A stretch of DNA of 37,159 bases from Coriobacteriia bacterium. GTDB taxonomy: Bacteria; Actinomycetota; Coriobacteriia; Coriobacteriales; UBA8131. The notes beneath the pieces were generated by a model. The model was given only the letters and a program-made list of their open reading frames with translations, made no database searches and was not told the origin of the DNA. Positions 4,946 to 19,600 of the stretch are shown here, in pieces. Numbering within the stretch: position 1 is the stretch's first letter; the number at the start of each line of letters is the position of its first letter. The translations under genes were made by a program, and so were the position numbers. The stretch covers positions 1 to 37,159 of the forward strand of contig WRHL01000009.1 in assembly GCA_009783245.1 (NCBI GenBank). The letters are read 5' to 3'.

Positions 4946-7900
4946 CTAGGCTTCGAAGTTGTCCTTGGCGATGGAGATCATCAACTTGATGCGGTTGAGC
5001 TGGTTGACCTCGCTGGCGCCGGGGTCGTAGTCCACGGCTACTATGTTGGACTTGGGGTTGAGCTGACGCAGCGCCTTGATGACGCCTTTGCCGGTCACGT
5101 GGTTGGGCAGGCAGGCGAAGGGCTGCGTGCAGACTATGTTTGGCGTGCCGGTGTGGATGAGTTCGAGCATCTCGGCGGTCAGAAGCCAGCCCTCGCCCAT
5201 GGAGTTACAGAGGCTTAAGACCTCGCGCGCGTAGTCTGCCAGCTCATAGATGGTTGCCGGCGGATCGAAGCGCTCGCTTCTGCGCATGGCCTTGATGATG
5301 GGCTGGCGCATGCGATTGAGCAGGGCCAACGTGATGCGGGAACCCATGGCGGACTTGGCGGTCTTGACCAGCTCGCGCCGCTGCCAGATGGCGTTCGAGA
5401 TGCCAAAGAGGAAGAACTCCGTCAGTCCGGGCACCACCACTTCGCAGCCTTCCGCCTCCACCACGTCGACAATGCCGTTGTTGGCGGTGGGGTGGAATTT
5501 GACGAGGATCTCGCCCACGATGCCAACCCGTGGCTTGGAGCGGTCATCGACCAGCTCCAGGGTGTCGAACTCCCGGATGATCTGGCGTGCGGTGCGGCGG
5601 TAGATGCCGTAGCTGATCTTACCCAGTATCTGGCCGTCGCAGACATCCATCCACTTACGGAAGAGCGCGTACGCTGAGCCCTTGACCTTCTCGTAGGGCC
5701 GTGTTCGGTAGAGGCAGGCCATGAGCAGGTCACCGTAGTAGAAGGAATAGATGGCGCGCAGCAGCATGATGGGCTTGATCTTGAAGCCGGGGTTGTTCTC
5801 GCCACCTATGTTGTGGAAGCTCAGCGCGATGACCGGCACCTGCGGATACCCTGCCTCGCGCAGGGCCTTGCGGATGAGACCGATGTAGTTGGTTGCACGG
5901 CAACCACCGCCGGTCTGGGTGATGATGACCGCGGTGCGGTTGACGTCGTAGCGACCCGAGGTGATGGCCTCCATGATCTGGCCGGTGACCAGGATGGAGG
6001 GGTAGCAGATGTCGTTGTTGGTGTAGCGCAGGCCGGCTTCAACAGCCTCGGGATCCACGCTGGGCAGGATGTTGAGGTTGAAGCCGTACCGCTCAAAGAC
6101 CCTGCTGAGCAGCTCAAAATGGATGGGCGCCATCTGTGGGCTGAGGATGGTGTAGCCCTGCTCCTTCATCTCCTTGGTATAGGGCGGCTTGTTGATGGCC
6201 GTGGTGGTGAGGTTCGGCTTGGACATAAAGGGGACGGATGTGACAGAGGGGACGGATGTGACAGAGGGGACGGACGATGTGACAAAAGGGACCGCCCCCT
6301 TTGTCACATCGTCCGTCCCCTCTGTGTCCTCTATGTCCTGTTGCCGGGCTTCTTCCTGCTCCTTGAGGGCGGCCAGCAGCGAACGCACGCGGATGCGGGC
6401 AGCGCCCAGGTTGCTTACCTCGTCTATCTTGAGCACGGTGTAGATCTTGCCGGCCGGCTCCAGTATCTCCTGCACCTGGTCGGTGGTGATGGCATCAAGG
6501 CCGCAGCCAAAGCTGTTGAGCTGTATGAGGTCGAGGTCGTCGCGCAGCGTGCAGTACTTCGCCGCGGCGTAGAGGCGTGAGTGGAACATCCACTGGTCCA
6601 CCACGCGCAGCGGGCGCTCGGGCTTGATGATGTGCGCGATGCTGTCCTCGGTGAGCACCGCCAGGCCAAAGCTGGCGAGCAGTTCGGGGATGGCGTGGTT
6701 GATCTCCGGGTCTATGTGGTAGGGGCGCCCGGCCAGGACTATGCCGTGCGTCTTGGTCTCCTCCATCCAGCGTAGCGCGTCCTCACCGGCGCGGCGGATG
6801 TCGCTTTTGAAGGCCTCGTCCTCTGCCCAGGCCTTCTGTGTTGCCGCGGTCACCTCTGCCATGGTGGGGGCTGTGCCCTTTGCCTGGGGATGGGTATCGA
6901 AGTACTTCTTGAGCTCCTCATGGGAGCGCTCGATGAAGCGCTGCACGTTGTCATAGGGCAAGAAGGGGTTGAGGAAGGCGACCTCGCCGCTTTGCAGCTC
7001 CTCCACGTTGAGCTTGATGACCTCGGGGTAGCTGACCACAACCGGGCAGTTGAAGTGGTTGGGTGAGCCTTCGTCCTCTTGGCGCTCATAGCGGATGCAG
7101 GGCATGAAGATGAAGTCGATGGGGGATTCAGCGGACATAAAGGGGACGGATGTGACAAAGGGGACGGATGTGACAAAAGGGACCGTCCCCTTTGTCACAT
7201 CCGTCCCCTTTGTCACATCCAAGTCGATGGAGATACTGCGTTGGGCGATGCAGCCCAGGTTGACTGCCACCGGCAGCGCGGCGATGTGGCAGGGCGCCGT
7301 GAGCACATGCACGGCCAAGGCGGTGGCGCTGCCGCCAAAGCCGCCTGCGCCTATACCCAGGGCGTTTATCTCGGTGAGCAGCTCCTGCTCCAAAGATGTG
7401 GTGTCAGAACAGTACCGTCCCCCTGACACCTTTTCTGACACCTTTTGCTGCCTGACCTCGCGCAGCAAGGCGCGCTTAGCCAGACTGCCCACCTTGTCAA
7501 AGGTGCCGCCTACGCCAATGCCCACAAGCAGGGGCGGGCAGGCGTTCGCGCCTTTCTCCGCCACCGCCTCCAGCACTACGCGCTTGACCCCTTCCACACC
7601 CTCGCCAGGCGCAAGCATGACCACGCGCGAGGCGTTGTCGGAGCCGCCGCCCTTGAGCATGACGTGCAGCGTGGCGCCCTTCTTTTGGGGGTTGAGGTAC
7701 AGCTCGCAGAAGGCCGGTGTGTTGTTATAGGAGTTGGTACGGTCAGAAAGCGCGTCGCGCGTCAGGCTCATGCGCAGGGCGCCATGCCTATACGCGCGCG
7801 TAACGGCCCTGTCTACCAGCGAGAACACGTTGGCCGGCACGGTTATGGGGCGGCCGTTTGCGTACTTCTCCCCCACCTCCAGCAACACCCAGACGTACCC

Positions 7901-8119
7901 GGTGTCCTGGCAGAGTGGAACCTGCTTCTCAGCGGCGATATACGCGTTGTCGACCAGCTGCTGCAGGATGACCTGCTCCCGCTCATCAGCTGCCTGCCCA
8001 CATGCGTGCTCCAGCGCCTCAAGCACATCAGGGCGCAGCCCACAGGCAATCTGCGGGATCGCCTGCTCAACAATCTGGGCAAGCGTCTCTGCGGTCAACA
8101 TGTACTGCAACATTTTCAT
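4946..8119 (-). CDS. Chimeric protein: class I fumarase alpha domain fused to truncated activase-related (DUF2229/HgdB-like) protein
   Basis: 1057 residues from ATG 8117-8119; ATG 8111-8113 is also possible. Residues 1-300 match the alpha domain of class I fumarase/tartrate dehydratase: PLCQDTG (Cys70), KGGGSDN, NACPPLLVGIGVGG (Cys194), APCHIAALPVAVN (Cys277), that is, three Fe-S cysteines. Residues 334-590 are DUF2229, beginning abruptly at IDFIFMPCIRYER; about 80 residues that normally precede this are absent, as are the two ASKHA ATPase domains of such activase proteins. Residues 635-1057 are the HgdB-like C-terminal part (NNDICYPS, TQTGGGCRATNY, GEILVKFHPTANN). Family-A palindromes are translated at 224-243, 302-330 and 597-633. 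No fumarase beta subunit is encoded nearby, so fumarase activity is doubtful. It may be a deletion fusion, a decaying gene or an assembly join. Confidence 0.75.
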   Translation of the reverse strand: MKMLQYMLTAETLAQIVEQAIPQIACGLRPDVLEALEHACGQAADEREQVILQQLVDNAYIAAEKQVPLCQDTGYVWVLLEVGEKYANGRPITVPANVFSLVDRAVTRAYRHGALRMSLTRDALSDRTNSYNNTPAFCELYLNPQKKGATLHVMLKGGGSDNASRVVMLAPGEGVEGVKRVVLEAVAEKGANACPPLLVGIGVGGTFDKVGSLAKRALLREVRQQKVSEKVSGGRYCSDTTSLEQELLTEINALGIGAGGFGGSATALAVHVLTAPCHIAALPVAVNLGCIAQRSISIDLDVTKGTDVTKGTVPFVTSVPFVTSVPFMSAESPIDFIFMPCIRYERQEDEGSPNHFNCPVVVSYPEVIKLNVEELQSGEVAFLNPFLPYDNVQRFIERSHEELKKYFDTHPQAKGTAPTMAEVTAATQKAWAEDEAFKSDIRRAGEDALRWMEETKTHGIVLAGRPYHIDPEINHAIPELLASFGLAVLTEDSIAHIIKPERPLRVVDQWMFHSRLYAAAKYCTLRDDLDLIQLNSFGCGLDAITTDQVQEILEPAGKIYTVLKIDEVSNLGAARIRVRSLLAALKEQEEARQQDIEDTEGTDDVTKGAVPFVTSSVPSVTSVPSVTSVPFMSKPNLTTTAINKPPYTKEMKEQGYTILSPQMAPIHFELLSRVFERYGFNLNILPSVDPEAVEAGLRYTNNDICYPSILVTGQIMEAITSGRYDVNRTAVIITQTGGGCRATNYIGLIRKALREAGYPQVPVIALSFHNIGGENNPGFKIKPIMLLRAIYSFYYGDLLMACLYRTRPYEKVKGSAYALFRKWMDVCDGQILGKISYGIYRRTARQIIREFDTLELVDDRSKPRVGIVGEILVKFHPTANNGIVDVVEAEGCEVVVPGLTEFFLFGISNAIWQRRELVKTAKSAMGSRITLALLNRMRQPIIKAMRRSERFDPPATIYELADYAREVLSLCNSMGEGWLLTAEMLELIHTGTPNIVCTQPFACLPNHVTGKGVIKALRQLNPKSNIVAVDYDPGASEVNQLNRIKLMISIAKDNFEA
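6221..6338. repeat. Family-A palindromic element inside the coding frame
   Basis: Imperfect hairpin made of three GGGGACGG(A) units on the left and matching units on the right. It runs from GGACATAAAGGGGACGG to the complementary CCTCTATGTCC. It is read in frame as the linker between the DUF2229 part and the C-terminal part of the fused protein, giving VTKGAVPFVTSSVPSVTS-type peptide. Confidence 0.9.
7133..7220. repeat. Family-A palindromic element at the fusion junction
   Basis: Arms of about 35 bp with one mismatch (7148-7220) plus a GGACATAAAGG extension on the left. It is translated as DVTKGTDVTKGTVPF and continues through SVPFM. It lies exactly between the last conserved residue of the fumarase alpha domain and the first recognisable residue of the truncated DUF2229 domain. 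Confidence 0.9.
7400..7446. repeat. Palindromic element variant inside the fumarase-like domain
   Basis: GGTGTCAG (7400-7407) is complementary to CTGACACC at 7423-7430 and again at 7435-7442, with a GTACCGTCCCC core between. In the protein it adds about 15-20 residues (QQKVSEKVSGGRYCSDTTS) in a surface loop between ALLREV and LEQELLTEINALG, where fumarases normally have a short loop. Confidence 0.75.
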
Positions 8120-8164
8120 TCTTCCATTATAGATGCAGTCTGTGCGCTGTGTTAACGTCACTCA

Positions 8165-11090: not shown

Positions 11091-12671
11091 TCAGATGAGG
11101 ATTGCGGGCCAATACGGGGAGGCAAGGGCGTTCACGTGCATGTGCACAGCAAGCACTTCCTTGTAGCAGATACCATCCCGCCCGTCCTTGATGCCCTTGC
11201 CACGGGTTTTGGTGAAGGCCAACCTGCATCTGGGATCCAGGTTGGTGATCTGGGCGTGGTGGTGCTCATGGCCGGTGAAGACGATTCCGGCTGGCAACCC
11301 GGGAAGCGTGTCGCTTGATTCCATCACGGCGTAGCCATGGGCCTGCCGCTGCTTGTGGATGACGGTGTCCAACGGCAATGCGCCGACCATCTCAAAGACA
11401 CCGCCCTGGTAGGTGAGCGTACGACCCAGGAAGTGCAGACCGCCGCCCTCTGCATAGACCGACAGGTCAGCTTCTATGCGCTCTTTCAGTGACGCGCGGA
11501 AGGCTGTGTTAGCCTGCAGCTGCGCGGCGAAGACCTCCGGGAAGCCGCCGCCAATGTAGAGCGCACGGATGTCCTTGGGGAGGGCGCTGTCCTCCAGGCT
11601 GTTGACGAACACCAGCTCAGCGCCCTGCTTTTGTAGCGCCTGCAGGTTCTCCTCATAGTAGAAACAGAAGGCCGCATCACGGATGACCGCGATGCGTGGG
11701 GCGGATGTGACAAAGGGGACGGGGCGTTTTGGCACAACTGGGGGCGCTTCAGCCATCGCGCCCAACTCTGCGACCTGGTCGGCTAGGTTGCCACGCTCCG
11801 GCTTCGCCTCCGCTCGCAATGACGGGGAGGTAGATACAGGTTGAGCCTCCGCTCGCAATGACGGGGAGGTGGATGCGGGCTGAGGCGCAGCTCGCAATGA
11901 CTGGGAGGTGGATGCGGGCTGAGGCGCAGCTCGCAATGACGCAGGTATCAGGGGAGCCGTGTCCTCCACTGTCGCCAACGTGAGGATGGCGTCGAGGTCG
12001 ATGTGTTCACAGACGCAATCAGCAATCCCATCCAGCAGTTCTTCTCGTGCCGGGGCTTCCTCACTGGAGAGCAGGCCCAGGTGACGGTCCGGGATATGCA
12101 GGCGGTCATCAACGGGCAGGGCGCCCACCACAGGGATACCGCAGGTGGCCTCGATGGCCTCGCGGATGAGCTCGACGTGGCGGCTCCCACGCACGTGGTT
12201 GAGGATGACCCCCACAATCTGAAGCTCTGGGTAAAAACGCTGACAGCCCAAAACAAGGGCGGCCGTTGTGCGGGTCATCCGCGTGGTGTTCATGACAAGG
12301 AGGACGGGCGTCTGGGTTATCTTGGCGATCTCAGCCGAGGAGCAGCTGCCTTGGCTGTCCAGGCCATCGAACAGCCCCATCGCCGCCTCTATGATGCTCA
12401 GGTCGCTGCCGTCTGAGCACTCCTCAAAGACGGCACAGATCTGCTCAGGGCTCATGAAGAAGCGGTCGAGGTTGCGACTTGTCCGTCCACAGGCAACGCT
12501 GTGCCAGCCCGGGTCGATGAAGTCCGGCCCCTTTTTGAAGGGCTGGACCACCATCCCCCGCCGGGTGAGCGCACGCAGCAGCCCCAGGGTGATGACGGTT
12601 TTGCCGCTTCTCCCAGAGGGCGCCGCGATCATGATGCGCGCTGGCGCTCCAGGGACAGAAGGTGTGGACAT
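11091..12671 (-). CDS. cbiA: Cobyrinate a,c-diamide synthase-like protein (DsrN type) with altered glutaminase site
   Basis: 526 residues. The N-terminal synthetase domain (1-235) has the P-loop APSGRSGKT (17-25), KKGPDFIDPGWH and EAAMGLFDG. The C-terminal class I glutaminase domain (325-520) has YIGGGFPE and GHEHHH. In dsr operons this homologue, DsrN, is thought to amidate siroheme. Two features are odd. First, the catalytic Cys of the usual AECGG motif is Gly409 (YAEGGGLHFLG, codon GGC), so glutamine hydrolysis should be lost. Second, the linker (about 243-325) is made of in-frame repeats: a 39-bp unit (13 residues, SLRAAPQPASTSQ) over three times, then a family-A half unit (VPFVTSAP). It is the last gene of the dsr unit, separated from dsrC by a repeat-rich gap. 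Confidence 0.85.
   Translation of the reverse strand: MSTPSVPGAPARIMIAAPSGRSGKTVITLGLLRALTRRGMVVQPFKKGPDFIDPGWHSVACGRTSRNLDRFFMSPEQICAVFEECSDGSDLSIIEAAMGLFDGLDSQGSCSSAEIAKITQTPVLLVMNTTRMTRTTAALVLGCQRFYPELQIVGVILNHVRGSRHVELIREAIEATCGIPVVGALPVDDRLHIPDRHLGLLSSEEAPAREELLDGIADCVCEHIDLDAILTLATVEDTAPLIPASLRAAPQPASTSQSLRAAPQPASTSPSLRAEAQPVSTSPSLRAEAKPERGNLADQVAELGAMAEAPPVVPKRPVPFVTSAPRIAVIRDAAFCFYYEENLQALQKQGAELVFVNSLEDSALPKDIRALYIGGGFPEVFAAQLQANTAFRASLKERIEADLSVYAEGGGLHFLGRTLTYQGGVFEMVGALPLDTVIHKQRQAHGYAVMESSDTLPGLPAGIVFTGHEHHHAQITNLDPRCRLAFTKTRGKGIKDGRDGICYKEVLAVHMHVNALASPYWPAILI
11805..11943. repeat. 39-bp tandem repeat coding the CbiA linker
   Basis: Copies of CGCTCGCAATGACGGGGAGG or close variants start at 11811, 11850, 11889 and 11928, an exact 39-bp period. 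The period is a multiple of three, so each copy adds 13 residues without a frame change. The core belongs to family B. Confidence 0.9.
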
Positions 12672-12704
12672 AAGGCTCCTCGCTGTGACAGTCGCCCAAC
12701 AATG

Positions 12705-12795
12705 AAAGCGCTACCGTAGATTGCCACGCCCCGCCTGTGGGCGGGGCTCGCAATGACGGAGGTTGGTACCAGGCCGAATCGCTCGCAATGACGGA
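12705..12795. repeat. Family-B repeat between dsrC and cbiA
   Basis: GATTGCCACGCCCCGCCTGTGGG with the complementary GCGGGGC forms a hairpin. Two GCTCGCAATGACGGA copies (about 12745-12762 and 12781-12794) follow. It separates cbiA from dsrC (12672-12833); no gene is seen in the gap. Confidence 0.8.
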
Positions 12796-12833
12796 AGCTG
12801 TGGAGGGCTGGTGAGTCAGGCGTAACTACGGGA

Positions 12834-14343: not shown

Positions 14344-15289
14344 GCGGCTCACCGCCTTTGGGCGCGTCTGTGGGGCTTTCTGCCCCTCTGAGCAGGTAGT
14401 ACACGCTGGGCTCGGTGCCCAGCTCGGGGCGGCGGCGGATCGACAAGCTGCCCGCCAGCGCCTGCCGCACCTCTGAGGCGGGGTCGTCGAGGTCGCCGTA
14501 GAGGATGGCGCCCTGGCTGGCCTCAACGCAATGCGGCGGCAGGCCCTGCGCCAGGCGTTCCACGCAGAAGTTGCACTTCTCCACCACCCCGCGCATCCGC
14601 GTGGGGTAGCCAGGATCCACCTGGGCGATGTAGGGCTGCGGGTCGCAGAAATTCAAGCTGCGGGCACCATAAGGGCACGAGGTCATGCAGAACCGGCAAC
14701 CGATGCAGCGGTGGTAATCCATGTCCACAATGCCGTCGTCGCGCTTGAACGTAGCCTGCGTGGGACAGACGCGCACGCACACCGGGTTTTCGCAGTGGTT
14801 GCACAGCACGGGGAACTGCAGCTCCCTGAGGGCGGCAGGCAGATAGGCGCTGTCCATCTCCTCAAAACAATGCGCGAAATCATCCTGCCAGATCCACTTG
14901 ACCTCGGTCTTGGGGTCGCTTATCTGCGGGACGTTGTGGTGGCTGTGGCAGGCCTGGGCAACGGCGTTGAAGGCCTGGGTTTTAACGAGGAGGGCGGGGT
15001 CGATGACCAGCCCCCAGCGTTGGGCAGCTGGCGCCGCGGGGGCGGCGGTGGCGGTGGTGGCCGCGGGGGCGGTGGCCGCAGGGGCCGCAACCTTGCTGCA
15101 GCCAACCAGCGTACCAAGCGCACCCAAGCTGCCTAGGGCGCCCAGCCCCAGCAGCCCGGCGGCAAACCCCTGCCGGATGAACTCGCGGCGTTCCAAGGAC
15201 ATAAAGGGGACGTATGTGACAAAGGGGACGGTCCCTTTTGTCACATACGTCCCCTTTATGTCCTTCTGTGTTCTTCTCAACTCGCTCAT
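14336..15289 (-). CDS. dsrO: DsrO, Tat-exported ferredoxin subunit of DsrMKJOP
   Basis: 317 residues. The ATG at 15287-15289 overlaps the dsrJ stop (ATGA), so it is probably the native start. A family-A palindrome has put about 24 residues (through KGTVPFVTYVPFM) between this start and the twin-arginine signal ERREFIRQGFAAG. An internal ATG at 15200-15202 would give a 288-residue protein with a normal Tat signal. A possible lipobox (TLVGC) and an Ala-rich spacer follow. The mature protein has several 4Fe-4S motifs: CNHCENPVCVRVCPTQA, CIGCRFCMTSCPYG and CNFCVERL. It is an extracytoplasmic electron carrier between DsrJ and DsrP. The next gene, dsrP, overlaps its end. Confidence 0.92.
   Translation of the reverse strand: MSELRRTQKDIKGTYVTKGTVPFVTYVPFMSLERREFIRQGFAAGLLGLGALGSLGALGTLVGCSKVAAPAATAPAATTATAAPAAPAAQRWGLVIDPALLVKTQAFNAVAQACHSHHNVPQISDPKTEVKWIWQDDFAHCFEEMDSAYLPAALRELQFPVLCNHCENPVCVRVCPTQATFKRDDGIVDMDYHRCIGCRFCMTSCPYGARSLNFCDPQPYIAQVDPGYPTRMRGVVEKCNFCVERLAQGLPPHCVEASQGAILYGDLDDPASEVRQALAGSLSIRRRPELGTEPSVYYLLRGAESPTDAPKGGEPHA
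15195..15265. repeat. Family-A palindrome at the 5' end of dsrO
   Basis: 71 bp with arms from AAGGACATAAAGGGG to its complement, one mismatch. It lies in frame between the coupled start codon of dsrO and its Tat signal, and contains the alternative ATG (15200-15202) at one arm. The mRNA would form a very stable hairpin here. Confidence 0.93.
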
Positions 15290-15687
15290 CTACCCGTCAC
15301 GCCTTCCTCGCCGTTGTGGCAGCTCCAACAGTTCGGCTCTGCAGCCACATACGCATGGCAGGAATCGCAGAACTCCGCCCGGTTGTCATGGCAGCCAAGA
15401 CAGCTGTCCTCCAGGCTCATCGCATACACCCGCCCGGCGCTGCTAGTGTACGTTGTGGCGCCGTCGCGCACAACCGCGGTGCGCCAGCTGTCAAGCAGCA
15501 GCATGTGCTCGGCACGCATGTACGCCGCCGACTCCACGCACTGCCGCTCCTCCAGGGCGTTGATCGCCTGCGTATCCAGGGATGGCGCCGGCACTGCGGC
15601 GACCCGCCCCTGGTTGAGCCATACCGGCGCAAGCACCAGGCCCAATATAACAAGAAGGAAGGCGACTATCCGCACCGGCTTATACAT
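15286..15687 (-). CDS. dsrJ: DsrJ, triheme cytochrome c
   Basis: 133 residues from ATG 15685-15687, which overlaps the dsrK stop by one base. An uncleaved N-terminal membrane anchor (residues 5-25) is followed by an extracytoplasmic domain with three haem c motifs: CLGCH (96-100), CDSCH (107-111) and CWSCH (120-124). Cys50 in ECR-like context RQCVESAAYMRAEHM matches the conserved cysteine that ligates one haem in known DsrJ proteins. A c-type cytochrome subunit is absent from the DsrMK-only systems of typical Gram-positive sulfate reducers. Confidence 0.94.
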   Translation of the reverse strand: MYKPVRIVAFLLVILGLVLAPVWLNQGRVAAVPAPSLDTQAINALEERQCVESAAYMRAEHMLLLDSWRTAVVRDGATTYTSSAGRVYAMSLEDSCLGCHDNRAEFCDSCHAYVAAEPNCWSCHNGEEGVTGR

Positions 15688-17309
15688 CAGCTGGCCTCCT
15701 CCCCTACCCTCAGCGACAGGTCCGCAAGGCGGAGGTCCAGGCGGCGGTCGATCTCGCCGTCCATGACCAAGGCGTTGCCCAGCAGCTCGTGGACGCCGGC
15801 CACGCGCACGCCGGGCACCCAGTAGTCCATCAGCGCAGGCAGCGATGCGCGGTCCAGCGCGCAGATGTTGGCCAGCGTGTTGACGCCATGCCGCTCGCGC
15901 ACACCGCGCACGGCGTTCGCGCGCGGGAAGCCCCCGCGCAGCCGCAGCTCCATGTTCTCGCCGGCATTGAGCCCCGCGCCGCTCCCGCAGCACAGCGTGT
16001 GCTCCCGGATGGTATCCTCCGGCATCTCGAAGAACTGCCGACAGACCCTCTGGATGATGTAGCGCGGCTCCTCCAAAAGCCCCATCGCCCGCGCCGTGTT
16101 GCAGGAATCATGGAAGGTGACCACCAGTTCATCGTTGCGAGCGGGGTCCACCTTGATCTTATCGTGATACAGTAAATCGGCTGTGAACTCGGTAATATGC
16201 ACCATTTTTGTGGAAGCGGCGTTCTCAAAACGCGTGCCCGTGATGGGCGAGACGGGCAACTCCATGAAGTCGACCGGCCCGTTGAACGTGTCCATGTACT
16301 GGTTGACCAGCCGCCACATGTGGCCGCATTCGCCCCCGAGCATCCACCTCACACCCAGGCGTCGGGCCTCGGCGTAGAGCTTCGCGTTGAGGCGTTTTGC
16401 CATCTCGTGCGAGGTGAAGAAGCCAAAATTGCCGCCTTCTGAGGCGTAGGTGCTCAGCGTGTAGTCCAGCCCCAGCTGCTCGAGGAGCATGAGGTAGCCC
16501 ATGAAGGTGTAGGTGCCCGGCTCCGCGTACAGGTCGCCCGAGGGCACCACAAAGAGTATCTCCGCGCCCTTGCGGTTGAAGCTGGGCTCAATGTGCCTAC
16601 CGGTGATGGTCTCGATGTCCTCCAGCAAGAACTCGACGTTGTCCACCACGGTCTGCGGCTCGAGCCCCACGTGGTTGCCCTTGCGGTAGCAGTTCGCCAC
16701 GGGCCCCGCGATCCACTCGGTGTTCAGCCCCACCAGATTCAGCAGCTCACGCCCCATGAGCGTGATCTCCGCCTGGTCGATGCCGTAGGGGCAATACACC
16801 GAGCACCGCCGGCACTCGGTGCACTGGTAGAAGTAGTACCACCACTGTTTGAGCACGTCGATGGTGAGGTCGCGCGCGCCAACTAGCGGGCCGAACAGCC
16901 GCCCGGCAACGGTGAAATAGCGCCGGTACACAGAGCGCAGCAGCTCCGCGCGCTGCACCGGCATGTTGAGCGGATCGCCCGAGCCCAGATGGAAGTGGCA
17001 CTTGTCCGCGCAGGCCCCGCAGCGCACGCAGACGTCCATGAACAGCCTGAACGAGCGGTACTTGTCCAGCCGCTCCTCCATGCCTTTGACGATAAGGGCG
17101 ACCCAATCCTCGGGCAGCTTCCAGTCTTCCTCAGCCGGTGAGAAGTCGCGGGCGTTGGGCATTCCAACCGCCTCCAGGCTCCTGGCCTTGGCGCCGTAGC
17201 AGTACATGCCCGGCTTGAATTCTGTGGCCGCGCCCAGCCAGTCTGTCGCGGATGCTGGGGGCTGGTAGCTGAAGTCGAGCAGCGTGTCCTTGTCTGGCAG
17301 CTTCACCAT
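15687..17309 (-). CDS. dsrK: DsrK, HdrD-like iron-sulfur catalytic subunit
   Basis: 540 residues. Two 4Fe-4S motifs are present: CVRCGACADKC (Cys94, 97, 100, 104) and CTECRRCSVYCP (Cys163, 166, 169, 173). Two CCG-type regions follow, with HDSCNTARAMG and TLCCGSGAGLNAGEN. This is the family fold that holds the noncubane cluster for disulfide or trisulfide reduction; DsrC trisulfide is the expected substrate. The N-terminus (KPGMYCYGAK, EEDWKLPEDW) aligns with other DsrK proteins, so the start is right. The only Shine-Dalgarno-like sequence, GGGAGG about 12 nt before the ATG, belongs to a family-B repeat copy. A 1.26 kb repeat tract separates it from dsrM, normally its direct neighbour. Confidence 0.95.
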   Translation of the reverse strand: MVKLPDKDTLLDFSYQPPASATDWLGAATEFKPGMYCYGAKARSLEAVGMPNARDFSPAEEDWKLPEDWVALIVKGMEERLDKYRSFRLFMDVCVRCGACADKCHFHLGSGDPLNMPVQRAELLRSVYRRYFTVAGRLFGPLVGARDLTIDVLKQWWYYFYQCTECRRCSVYCPYGIDQAEITLMGRELLNLVGLNTEWIAGPVANCYRKGNHVGLEPQTVVDNVEFLLEDIETITGRHIEPSFNRKGAEILFVVPSGDLYAEPGTYTFMGYLMLLEQLGLDYTLSTYASEGGNFGFFTSHEMAKRLNAKLYAEARRLGVRWMLGGECGHMWRLVNQYMDTFNGPVDFMELPVSPITGTRFENAASTKMVHITEFTADLLYHDKIKVDPARNDELVVTFHDSCNTARAMGLLEEPRYIIQRVCRQFFEMPEDTIREHTLCCGSGAGLNAGENMELRLRGGFPRANAVRGVRERHGVNTLANICALDRASLPALMDYWVPGVRVAGVHELLGNALVMDGEIDRRLDLRLADLSLRVGEEAS

Positions 17310-17312
17310 GAC

Positions 17313-18578
17313 TCAGGCCAACCTCCCGTCATTGCGAGCGCTGACGGCCTGCACACAACTCCCGTCATTGCGAGCGGAGCGCCCGATGGGCGCGCAGCGT
17401 GGCAACCTAGCCGACACGTGTGCAGTTTTGGGGGTGATGGCTGAAGTATGCCCTCCGTCATTGCGAGCGCTGACTGTGTCGCGCGGGTAAAGAGCAAACC
17501 CGCGCTTGTCGCCAGCTCCGCTGGCTCCGTATTGGTAGGAAGTGCAGATGACGCAACGGCTGGCTAGGGTATAAACACTCCCGTCATTGCGAGCGGAGCC
17601 GCCAAAGGCGGCGCAGCGTGGCAATCTACGGAAGCGGTCAGGGATGTGTGGCGTTGACACAGCGCATAGACTCGCATTGCCTAAGGAAGAAGAGCGGGCA
17701 AAGAAGAGTGGCAGCGTGTGCCCTGTTGCTGCACTTTTGTTGGCACGCCTGTGGGTTTCTGCTTGGGATGCGGGTGCTGTCGTCTGTTTCTCTTCGCCCT
17801 TTGCGCCAATAAGCGCAGCCCAAGGCGTAGCATTGGGCTGCGTAACACTGCTTTCACTTGCTCCGTGACGGAAATCCGGGAGTTCCTGCCGCAAAAGTGG
17901 CGTAATGTACGATTTCCCAGCTGCCTCTTCAGAGCTATTTGCTACTTCATATCTAAACCTGCTGGTAGGTGGATTGCAGGTTGAGTAGGCTATTCTAGAG
18001 CCCTGTGATGAACCGTACATTACGCCACTTTTGCGGCAGGAACTCCCGGATTTGTGGCAAGCGGCTTCTTTTCTGCCTACGAGAAGGACAATGCCGGCGA
18101 TAGTGGCGGCCTGACTGCCGCCTACGCCTTGCTTCCCCTTCACTGCCGTCTCTTCTTCCTTCAGCAACGCAAGACTGTGCGCTGTGACAGGCTGCCGATA
18201 ATGAGAGCGCTTCCGTAGATTGCCACGTCGTTCGCTACGCTCGCTCCTCGCAATGACGGGGAGGTAGACTGAATCGCAGGTGGATGCGTCAACTGTACGA
18301 TAGAGGTAGACTTCAGCCGCCCTGCCCAAAACCGCAACTTGATGCCCTAGGTTGCCACGCTGCGCCGCCTTCGGCGGCTGCGCTCGCAATGACGGAGGTC
18401 TTGTGTGGGCTGTCGCTCCTCGCAATGACGGAGGGTAGACTTCAGCCGCCCTGCCCAAAACCGCAACTTGATGCCCTAGGTTGCCACGCTGCGCCGCCTT
18501 CGGCGGCTGCGCTCGCAATGACGGAAGTTTTGCACGAGTTGTCACTGCGCTCGCAATGACGGAGTGGCTGTGCGTCAT
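17313..18578 (-). CDS. Repeat-built open frame filling the dsrM-dsrK gap, doubtful gene
   Basis: 421 codons without a stop. The ATG (18576-18578) overlaps the dsrM stop as ATGA, with GAGGAGG 10 nt upstream inside dsrM; the stop at 17313 lies 3 nt before the dsrK start. The product is mostly translated repeats (SLRAQPPKAAQRGNL, SARNDG, IARSERSERRGNL) with a low-complexity middle, and no known domain. A frame this long is unlikely by chance at this base composition, though the repeats are stop-poor. It could be a real but unconserved protein, or a spacer kept translatable so that the downstream dsr genes are not lost to polarity. I would not assign a function. Confidence 0.3.
   Translation of the reverse strand: MTHSHSVIASAVTTRAKLPSLRAQPPKAAQRGNLGHQVAVLGRAAEVYPPSLRGATAHTRPPSLRAQPPKAAQRGNLGHQVAVLGRAAEVYLYRTVDASTCDSVYLPVIARSERSERRGNLRKRSHYRQPVTAHSLALLKEEETAVKGKQGVGGSQAATIAGIVLLVGRKEAACHKSGSSCRKSGVMYGSSQGSRIAYSTCNPPTSRFRYEVANSSEEAAGKSYITPLLRQELPDFRHGASESSVTQPNATPWAALIGAKGEEKQTTAPASQAETHRRANKSAATGHTLPLFFARSSSLGNASLCAVSTPHIPDRFRRLPRCAAFGGSARNDGSVYTLASRCVICTSYQYGASGAGDKRGFALYPRDTVSARNDGGHTSAITPKTAHVSARLPRCAPIGRSARNDGSCVQAVSARNDGRLA
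17872..18053. repeat. 40-bp perfect inverted repeats flanking a 102-bp core
   Basis: The arm at 17872-17911 (starting AAATCCGGGAGTTCCTGCCG) is exactly reverse-complementary to 18014-18053. The 102-bp core between them has no family-A or family-B motif. The structure could be a short non-autonomous mobile element, an invertible segment or a large hairpin. No recombinase is encoded nearby and I see no clear promoter in the core. Confidence 0.95.
18305..18525. repeat. 92-bp exact direct repeat
   Basis: 18305-18396 and 18434-18525 appear identical, offset by 129 bp, a multiple of three. Each contains a family-B core with the CCGCCTTCGGCGG hairpin plus about 50 bp of unique flank, so this is a tandem duplication of a larger unit and not two independent insertions. 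Confidence 0.92.
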
Positions 18579-19600
18579 GGGGCAACCGCCTCCTCTGCCT
18601 CATCGACTAGGCGTTCTACGGGCAGGCCTACTTTGAGCATCTTCTCGCGGAACTCGTCCTCATAGGCAGCGTAGGAGTGGGTCTCCACCTGTGGGTTCCA
18701 GGGGTTTATGTGGCGCTTTGCCCTGCTGTTGTTGGGGAGATTACGGGTGGGCGCCAAGAAGAACCCACCGGCATGCATGAGCTTGCTCCAGGGGAAATAG
18801 GCGGCAAGCGAGGACACCAGGAAGAGGTGGATGTAGAAGATGGGCCCCAGCGCCGTGGCGGGCTGGATAGCCGGGTGCAGCGTGACCAGGCCCATGGTCA
18901 GCTCCTTGACGGCTACCATGTCAACCTTGAAGAAGTACCGCATCAACACGCCTGTCAGTGCGACCCCGATGAGCAGGAAAAGGGCGAAGTAGTCAGCCGA
19001 CAAAGAGATATACCTGATGCGCGGCGCCACCACGCGCCGCAAGAACAGAAAGGTCAGCGCGCCCAGCAGCAGGACGTCAGTGAGATACAGCAGCGGGACG
19101 CCTACCTGCAAAAAGCTGTCGGCGGCGCCCAGGCCTAACACAAAGCCCGGCACCGGCTCAAAGAACAGGCGCAGGTGCCGCAGCGCAACAACAAGCAGCG
19201 ACCAGTGGAAGGCCAGCGCCCCCAGCCACAGCCACTTCGCCGAGCCAAAGCCCAGCGCCTCCCCGCGCTTCTCGGCACGGGTGTTATAGAACAGCGACCT
19301 GAAGAACAGCAGTTCAAGCGCCATTTTGCCCACAACGCCCGCCACCGTGCTGGGGTTGCCGATGCGGTTGTGCCGTATCCAGGGCAGGGACTTCTGTTGG
19401 CCGCCGGTGGTGGGGATGCGAAACGGCACCGCCGCCCTCCCCCAGCGGATGACGCGGTAGGTAAAGCCCACCAGGAAGAGCACAAAGGCGACGTAGGGGA
19501 TGACAACGCCAAAGACCAGCTCAAGGCGCAAAAGCCCTGCTCCCAGCCAGGCAAGCGCCACCAGGGCCACCACCCCGCACAGTGCATAAAGCAGTTTCAT
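18575..19600 (-). CDS. dsrM: DsrM, cytochrome b subunit of DsrMKJOP
   Basis: 341 residues, six or so membrane helices of the NarI-like haem b family. It contains LPWIRHNRIGNPST and HWSLLVVALRHLRLFFEPVPG. The C-terminus is cytosolic, with FPWSKLMHAGGFFLAPTRN and NPWNPQVETHSYAAYEDEFREKM, the conserved tail that contacts DsrK. It transfers electrons from the menaquinone pool to DsrK. It starts 64 bp after dsrB across a stretch of small CATCAG/CTCATCA repeats and lacks an obvious ribosome site. Its last codons and stop form ATGA with the following repeat-built frame. Confidence 0.94.
   Translation of the reverse strand: MKLLYALCGVVALVALAWLGAGLLRLELVFGVVIPYVAFVLFLVGFTYRVIRWGRAAVPFRIPTTGGQQKSLPWIRHNRIGNPSTVAGVVGKMALELLFFRSLFYNTRAEKRGEALGFGSAKWLWLGALAFHWSLLVVALRHLRLFFEPVPGFVLGLGAADSFLQVGVPLLYLTDVLLLGALTFLFLRRVVAPRIRYISLSADYFALFLLIGVALTGVLMRYFFKVDMVAVKELTMGLVTLHPAIQPATALGPIFYIHLFLVSSLAAYFPWSKLMHAGGFFLAPTRNLPNNSRAKRHINPWNPQVETHSYAAYEDEFREKMLKVGLPVERLVDEAEEAVAP

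Follow-up and report, generated by a model that had tools for sequence, protein, structure and literature searches.

An open frame through a CGTC-type REP cluster inserted between dsrM and dsrK, a candidate translational bridge

The dsrM-dsrK junction and the frame that spans it

The window analysed here is a 37,159-nucleotide stretch of DNA from a Coriobacteriia bacterium that carries dsr genes in the order dsrABMKJOPCN, with DsrK and DsrO matching their equivalog models (697.9 bits against the NCBIfam model for DsrK). The dsrM gene (18575..19600, minus strand) was identified by the Pfam family Nitrate_red_gam and by tblastn to relatives, and dsrK occupies 15687..17309 on the same strand. The tract between them is spanned by a single 421-codon stop-free frame, which we refer to as ORF421 (17313..18578, minus strand; ATG at 18578-18576). 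An earlier note, made from the letters of the sequence, had drawn attention to this frame, and its description of the frame was confirmed. There is no internal stop from 18578 to 17313, the frame begins as ATGA on the dsrM stop codon (18577-18575), with an AGGAGG Shine-Dalgarno sequence (18589..18594, minus) in the 3' end of dsrM, 10 nt upstream of the ATG, and it ends in a TGA (17313..17315, minus) that is separated by one codon, GTC, from the dsrK ATG at 17309, a spacing typical of translational coupling. The note did not mention that ORF421 shares its phase with dsrK: since the distance from the ORF421 ATG to the dsrK ATG is 1,269 nt (423 codons), the open frame is the frame of dsrK itself.

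Its length, the Shine-Dalgarno sequence at its start and its sharing of the dsrK phase would suit a true protein gene, or an N-terminal extension of DsrK produced by reading of the single TGA. However, both are scarcely credible, and we do not regard ORF421 as an independent protein gene. Searches against Pfam, NCBIfam and PDB sequences gave no match, and the idea that it encodes a known protein was dropped; an Rfam search likewise returned no RNA family near gathering scores. The GC content of ORF421 by codon position is 0.60/0.59/0.57, unlike that of the genes of the window (~0.6/0.43/0.85). Its codon usage is also unlike that of genes, with codon log-odds (trained on this genome) of -0.29 bits/codon against +0.31 for dsrM and +0.34 for dsrK, a score that resembles those of the other frames of the tract. 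Furthermore, relatives lack ORF421, its peptide is REP-derived, and comparison with relatives shows that the native N-terminus of DsrK, MVKLPDKDTLLDF, immediately follows the second ATG.

The distance between dsrM and dsrK at this locus is 1,265 nt, and among the loci scored this is unique. Across ~75 scorable loci where dsrK comes directly after dsrM, the two genes are separated by -176 to +21 nt, apart from a single locus at 129 nt, and in family relatives the distance is 2 to 14 nt; four further loci have their best dsrM match in another place, and two show a dsrM frame that continues through dsrK. Judged by this comparison, the tract is an insertion relative to relatives. Its 1,265 bp are bordered by CATG at the left insert edge (18576..18579), which includes the ORF421 start codon, and again at the right edge (17307..17310), which includes that of dsrK. 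The CATG pair suggests a target duplication, with the insert placed on the ancestral dsrK start codon. Joining the flanks at CATG rebuilds an empty site (..GAGGAGGCGGTTGCCCCATGGTGAAGCTG) in which the dsrM end, ..EEAVAPW*, overlaps a dsrK start, ATGGTGA, in a manner that resembles the junction at an uncultured Eggerthellaceae locus (L033). Before the insertion the dsrM/dsrK junction would have been overlapping, and it was probably translationally coupled. Since dsrK follows dsrM directly in relatives and the flanks can be joined in this way, the AGGAGG and ATG of ORF421 are most simply read as the old dsrK initiation site.

Repeat make-up of the insert and related sites

In structure the insert is nested and for the most part palindromic, being built of clustered CGTC-type REPs. 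Exact CCGTCATTGCG / CGCAATGACGG words, which are the CGTC-tagged ends of such REPs, occur nine times between 17326 and 18562, four of them pointing one way in the left part and five inverted in the right part. A central palindromic element (17872..18053) has 43-nt arms that are 98% complementary and separated by 96 nt (z = -10.4), and more copies of it are found on contigs C33, C15 and C3. It lies within a core (17640..18240) that is 86-88% identical to C33:8194-8872, which is likewise open in the homologous frame, and a 129-bp (43-codon) unit occurs as a tandem pair at 18305..18564. The full transcript is predicted to fold end to end (-691 kcal/mol, outermost pair 6-1262). Palindromy is visible in this folding and in local inverted repeats; a global alignment of the arms gave an identity no better than that of shuffled arms, because the units are rearranged.

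In the genome the tract has 122 partial matches, and the end word CGCAATGACGG has 106 exact copies as against 2 for the reversed control, the repeats being dispersed as inverted dimers and clusters. Up to 85 copies are present in other family members, and no long match to the core turned up in 32 family relatives. The genome encodes one Y1 transposase. A literature search by the letters of the repeats returned unrelated papers only.

REPs are also inserted in frame within ~20 other genes in this genome, conserved protein genes among them, including the CobB-type dsrN of the dsr operon and genes for P-type ATPase-like and YfiH-like proteins (the last two named from motifs). In dsrN/CobB (11091-12671, minus) the REP piece lies in frame in the interdomain linker (window 11812-11941) as 3.3 tandem copies of a 39-bp (13-codon) piece, and this linker is ~97 residues long compared with ~31 at locus L026. 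REP peptides (such as SVIASEARSAERGNL and PSLRAEPPEAERGNL) are found in frame in three proteins: the P-type ATPase-like protein, past its DKTGT motif (C4:16420-19107; L136), the YfiH-like protein (C12; L130) and a 1274-aa protein (C23:2370-6194; L123). A second REP pair fills the 162-nt dsrC-dsrN gap (window 12672-12833) and is open in one sense frame.

A second repeat family is associated with two genes of the window. In one of them, an ORF of 1071 aa at 4946-8161 (minus), a complete fumarase alpha-type domain is fused to a DUF2229 (CoA-enzyme activase) region without its first 67 profile positions, and the family (AAAGGGGACGGATGTGAC, peptide KGTVPFVTS) is present both at the join and at a later point, as if the repeats had made the join. 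The other is dsrO, at whose N-terminus (window 15180-15289, minus) the same family (GGGGACGG) encodes the first residues, KGTYVTKGTVPFVTYVPFMS, ahead of the DsrO homology; the true dsrO start may lie downstream.

Extent and source of the opening

Given its base composition the tract should contain one stop in every 29.8 codons, close to the one in 29 given in the earlier note, and the remaining five frames have 13-17 stops each, with longest open runs of no more than 100 codons. Under independent bases the probability of 421 open codons is ~6e-7, and Markov shuffles of order 0-5 reached this length 0 or 1 times per 2,000 simulations at each order. Because repeats could break the composition and shuffle nulls, a block-bootstrap was also run in which random blocks of the genome's own non-genic repeat stretches were concatenated. 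At least 400 open codons were seen in 0 to 4e-4 of these trials, and when the core was taken as given the flanks were open in 0.5-0.7%. Since ORF421 was chosen after being seen, these figures are guides and not clean P values. The stop simulation on repeats that the earlier note had proposed thus gave an openness beyond chance (<=5e-4), and the 421-codon opening exceeds chance even for repeat DNA. The note had called the frame unexpected despite stop-poor repeats; the improbability was borne out by shuffles and block-bootstraps, but on average the repeats are not short of stops, the genome's repeat pool having 1 stop trinucleotide per 30, and only particular phases are stop-poor.

As judged from the other copies, the openness is largely inherited from the repeats. 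In the phase homologous to ORF421 these copies have stops at 28 of 3,725 codons, compared with 101 of 3,752 and 188 of 3,725 in the other phases, and, the copies being similar sequences, the stop-poor phase shows inheritance. A typical unit is without a stop in five of its six frames. The core was compared with a second nested palindromic REP array of 1.2 kb between convergent genes (C33:8194-9348; L102 4195-5349), into which a further repeat, CACCCCGGGCTTGACCCGGGG, is inserted. There, at 88% identity, the same frame is open throughout a core of 240 codons, and a core given the same substitutions stays open in 15% of random cases. Its pN/pS against the C33 copy is 0.67, inside the range of the other frames (0.60-1.07), and coding selection on the core is therefore unsupported. 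In the C33 flanks the homologous frame is broken several times; at dsrM-dsrK it is intact. Finally, in a count that omits gaps holding genes missed by the simple gene caller, ten other REP-bearing co-directional gaps of at least 150 nt were scored, and the dsrC-dsrN gap was the only one open on the sense strand. A genome-wide rule that co-directional REP gaps are kept open is unsupported, as the gaps are mostly broken.

Translation of dsrK and comparison with known systems

The Shine-Dalgarno sequence of dsrK, GGGAGG (17322..17327, minus), is provided by the outer repeat end (..CGCAATGACGGGAGG), 12 nt before the ATG. The predicted cost of opening the dsrK start region is 20.7 kcal/mol, which ranks 2 of 145 genes (median 8.8). 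In the full predicted fold the site pairs with the ORF421 start, and otherwise with local partners. Merely removing the 5' part of the tract did not free the site, because the Shine-Dalgarno sequence remained paired locally in the prediction; given this local pairing, only ribosomes that had come right up to the ORF421 stop would open the site. The earlier note had suggested that translation through the tract prevents Rho-dependent polarity and keeps dsrKJOPC expressed, and had named a separate strong promoter before dsrK as evidence that would count against this. Our search saw no sigma-70-like promoter in the tract ahead of dsrK. The formerly tight junction, the improbable opening, the predicted occlusion and the presence of rho in the genome also agree with the suggestion, but the mostly inherited openness and the other co-directional gaps do not. 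Moreover, no Rut-like excess of C over G was seen in the tract, which is ordinary in this respect, so there is no specific sign of Rho. A need to couple dsrK translationally would explain translation of the tract at least as well as would escape from Rho, which may add to the effect of a bridge.

We propose, giving it roughly even odds of being correct, that a REP insertion at the dsrK start bridges translation from dsrM to dsrK and that coupling of the two genes has been kept. The REP cluster would have entered the dsrK start codon within the coupled dsrM/dsrK overlap, so that ORF421 would now begin at the left copy of that codon, behind the old Shine-Dalgarno sequence, and dsrK still at the right copy. 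We infer that ORF421 is translated: ribosomes ending dsrM would be handed on at the ATGA, would be able to cross the array since its units are linked in the open (dsrK) phase, and would stop 3 nt before dsrK, open the structured site and re-initiate. Such bridging would couple expression from dsrM to dsrKJOPC, and would cover 1.27 kb that is otherwise untranslated, hairpin-rich and exposed to Rho. It is a more doubtful proposition that a selfish array has been co-opted, with selection on operon coupling keeping the 421 codons open and dsrK translated mainly by the ribosomes that cross them.

The open frame could instead be a by-product of REP-cluster insertion, in which stop-poor phases were joined by chance and dsrK uses its own repeat-derived Shine-Dalgarno sequence with no selection involved, and the chances of this are appreciable, if short of even. 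Units that lack stops in five of six frames, and a homologous phase that is stop-poor across the genome, would account for the core, which is as open at the non-coding C33 site, where nothing lies downstream to serve; they account less well for 400 or more open codons, seen in at most 4e-4 of block-bootstraps, or for flanks that were open in ~0.5% and are repeatedly broken at C33. The post hoc choice of ORF421 and the mostly closed co-directional REP gaps count for the by-product, as does the fact that dsrK has its own Shine-Dalgarno sequence, although that site is predicted to be occluded and the open phase is exactly that of dsrK, with its stop 3 nt away. Selection may keep the frame open. 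Taking the predicted occlusion of the site, the absence of a promoter-like sequence, the presence of rho and the TGA-GTC-ATG arrangement together, we favour the bridge over the by-product. All of these results come from one draft genome (79.7% complete), whose 117 contigs include several with these multi-copy repeats at their ends, and repeat copies might have been misjoined between dsrM and dsrK during assembly. This is very unlikely, however, as both flanks are the expected neighbours of one operon, the CATG edges are clean with the dsrM end and dsrK start intact, and the ends of the palindrome match the edges of the insert.

The locus represents a natural experiment in the survival of an operon whose coupled start codon has received 1.3 kb of hairpin-rich DNA. 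If the bridging frame is kept by selection, stop-free DNA in operons that is not a gene can have a function, and annotation should avoid both calling such a tract a gene and dismissing it.

Closely spaced genes with a structured ribosome site are known to be coupled via unfolding or re-initiation (PMC12548453). The locus resembles such coupled gene pairs in its -4 nt ATGA overlap (at 18578), its +3 nt stop-start spacing (TGA-GTC-ATG at 17315) and the predicted occlusion of the downstream site, but the candidate coupling element is a repeat-derived bridge ORF and not a gene. Among the dsrMKJOP loci of sulfate/sulfite reducers, the others examined in which dsrM directly precedes dsrK have a gap of at most 129 nt.

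CGTC-tagged REP families, which include RPE-4/RPE-6 of Rickettsia conorii and dRS3 of Neisseria, have a stem of 8-9 bp starting with AT, a loop of 4-5 nt and an unpaired tail that fits CCA in most but not all cases, and their clustered intragenic repeats span 43-82 residues (PMC3733652). The repeats described here share the CGTC end followed by AT and the small palindromic units in inverted pairs or clusters, many of them between co-directional or convergent genes and some in frame within genes. The unit of one relative (G009), CGTC ATTGCGGG CTTGA CCCGCAAT CTA, is canonical, with an 8-bp stem and a 5-nt loop. Units of this genome combine ATTGC/GCAAT with interrupted inner stems and long loops; the tail is CTA here and in G009, and CCA in G007. 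They depart from the usual form of CGTC-tagged REPs in their longer, variable loops, interrupted stem and CTA rather than CCA tail, and in forming a cluster between two operon genes whose 421 open codons exceed the 43-82 residues of that report.

The RPEs of Rickettsia (Ogata et al. 2000) are, by the summary in PMC2229807, palindromes of 105-146 bp that lie within genes, their frames open and in phase with those of conserved proteins. CGTC-type REPs of this actinobacterial family likewise enter genes in frame, whereas the 1.27-kb array between dsrM and dsrK is intergenic and meets the start codon of the next gene.
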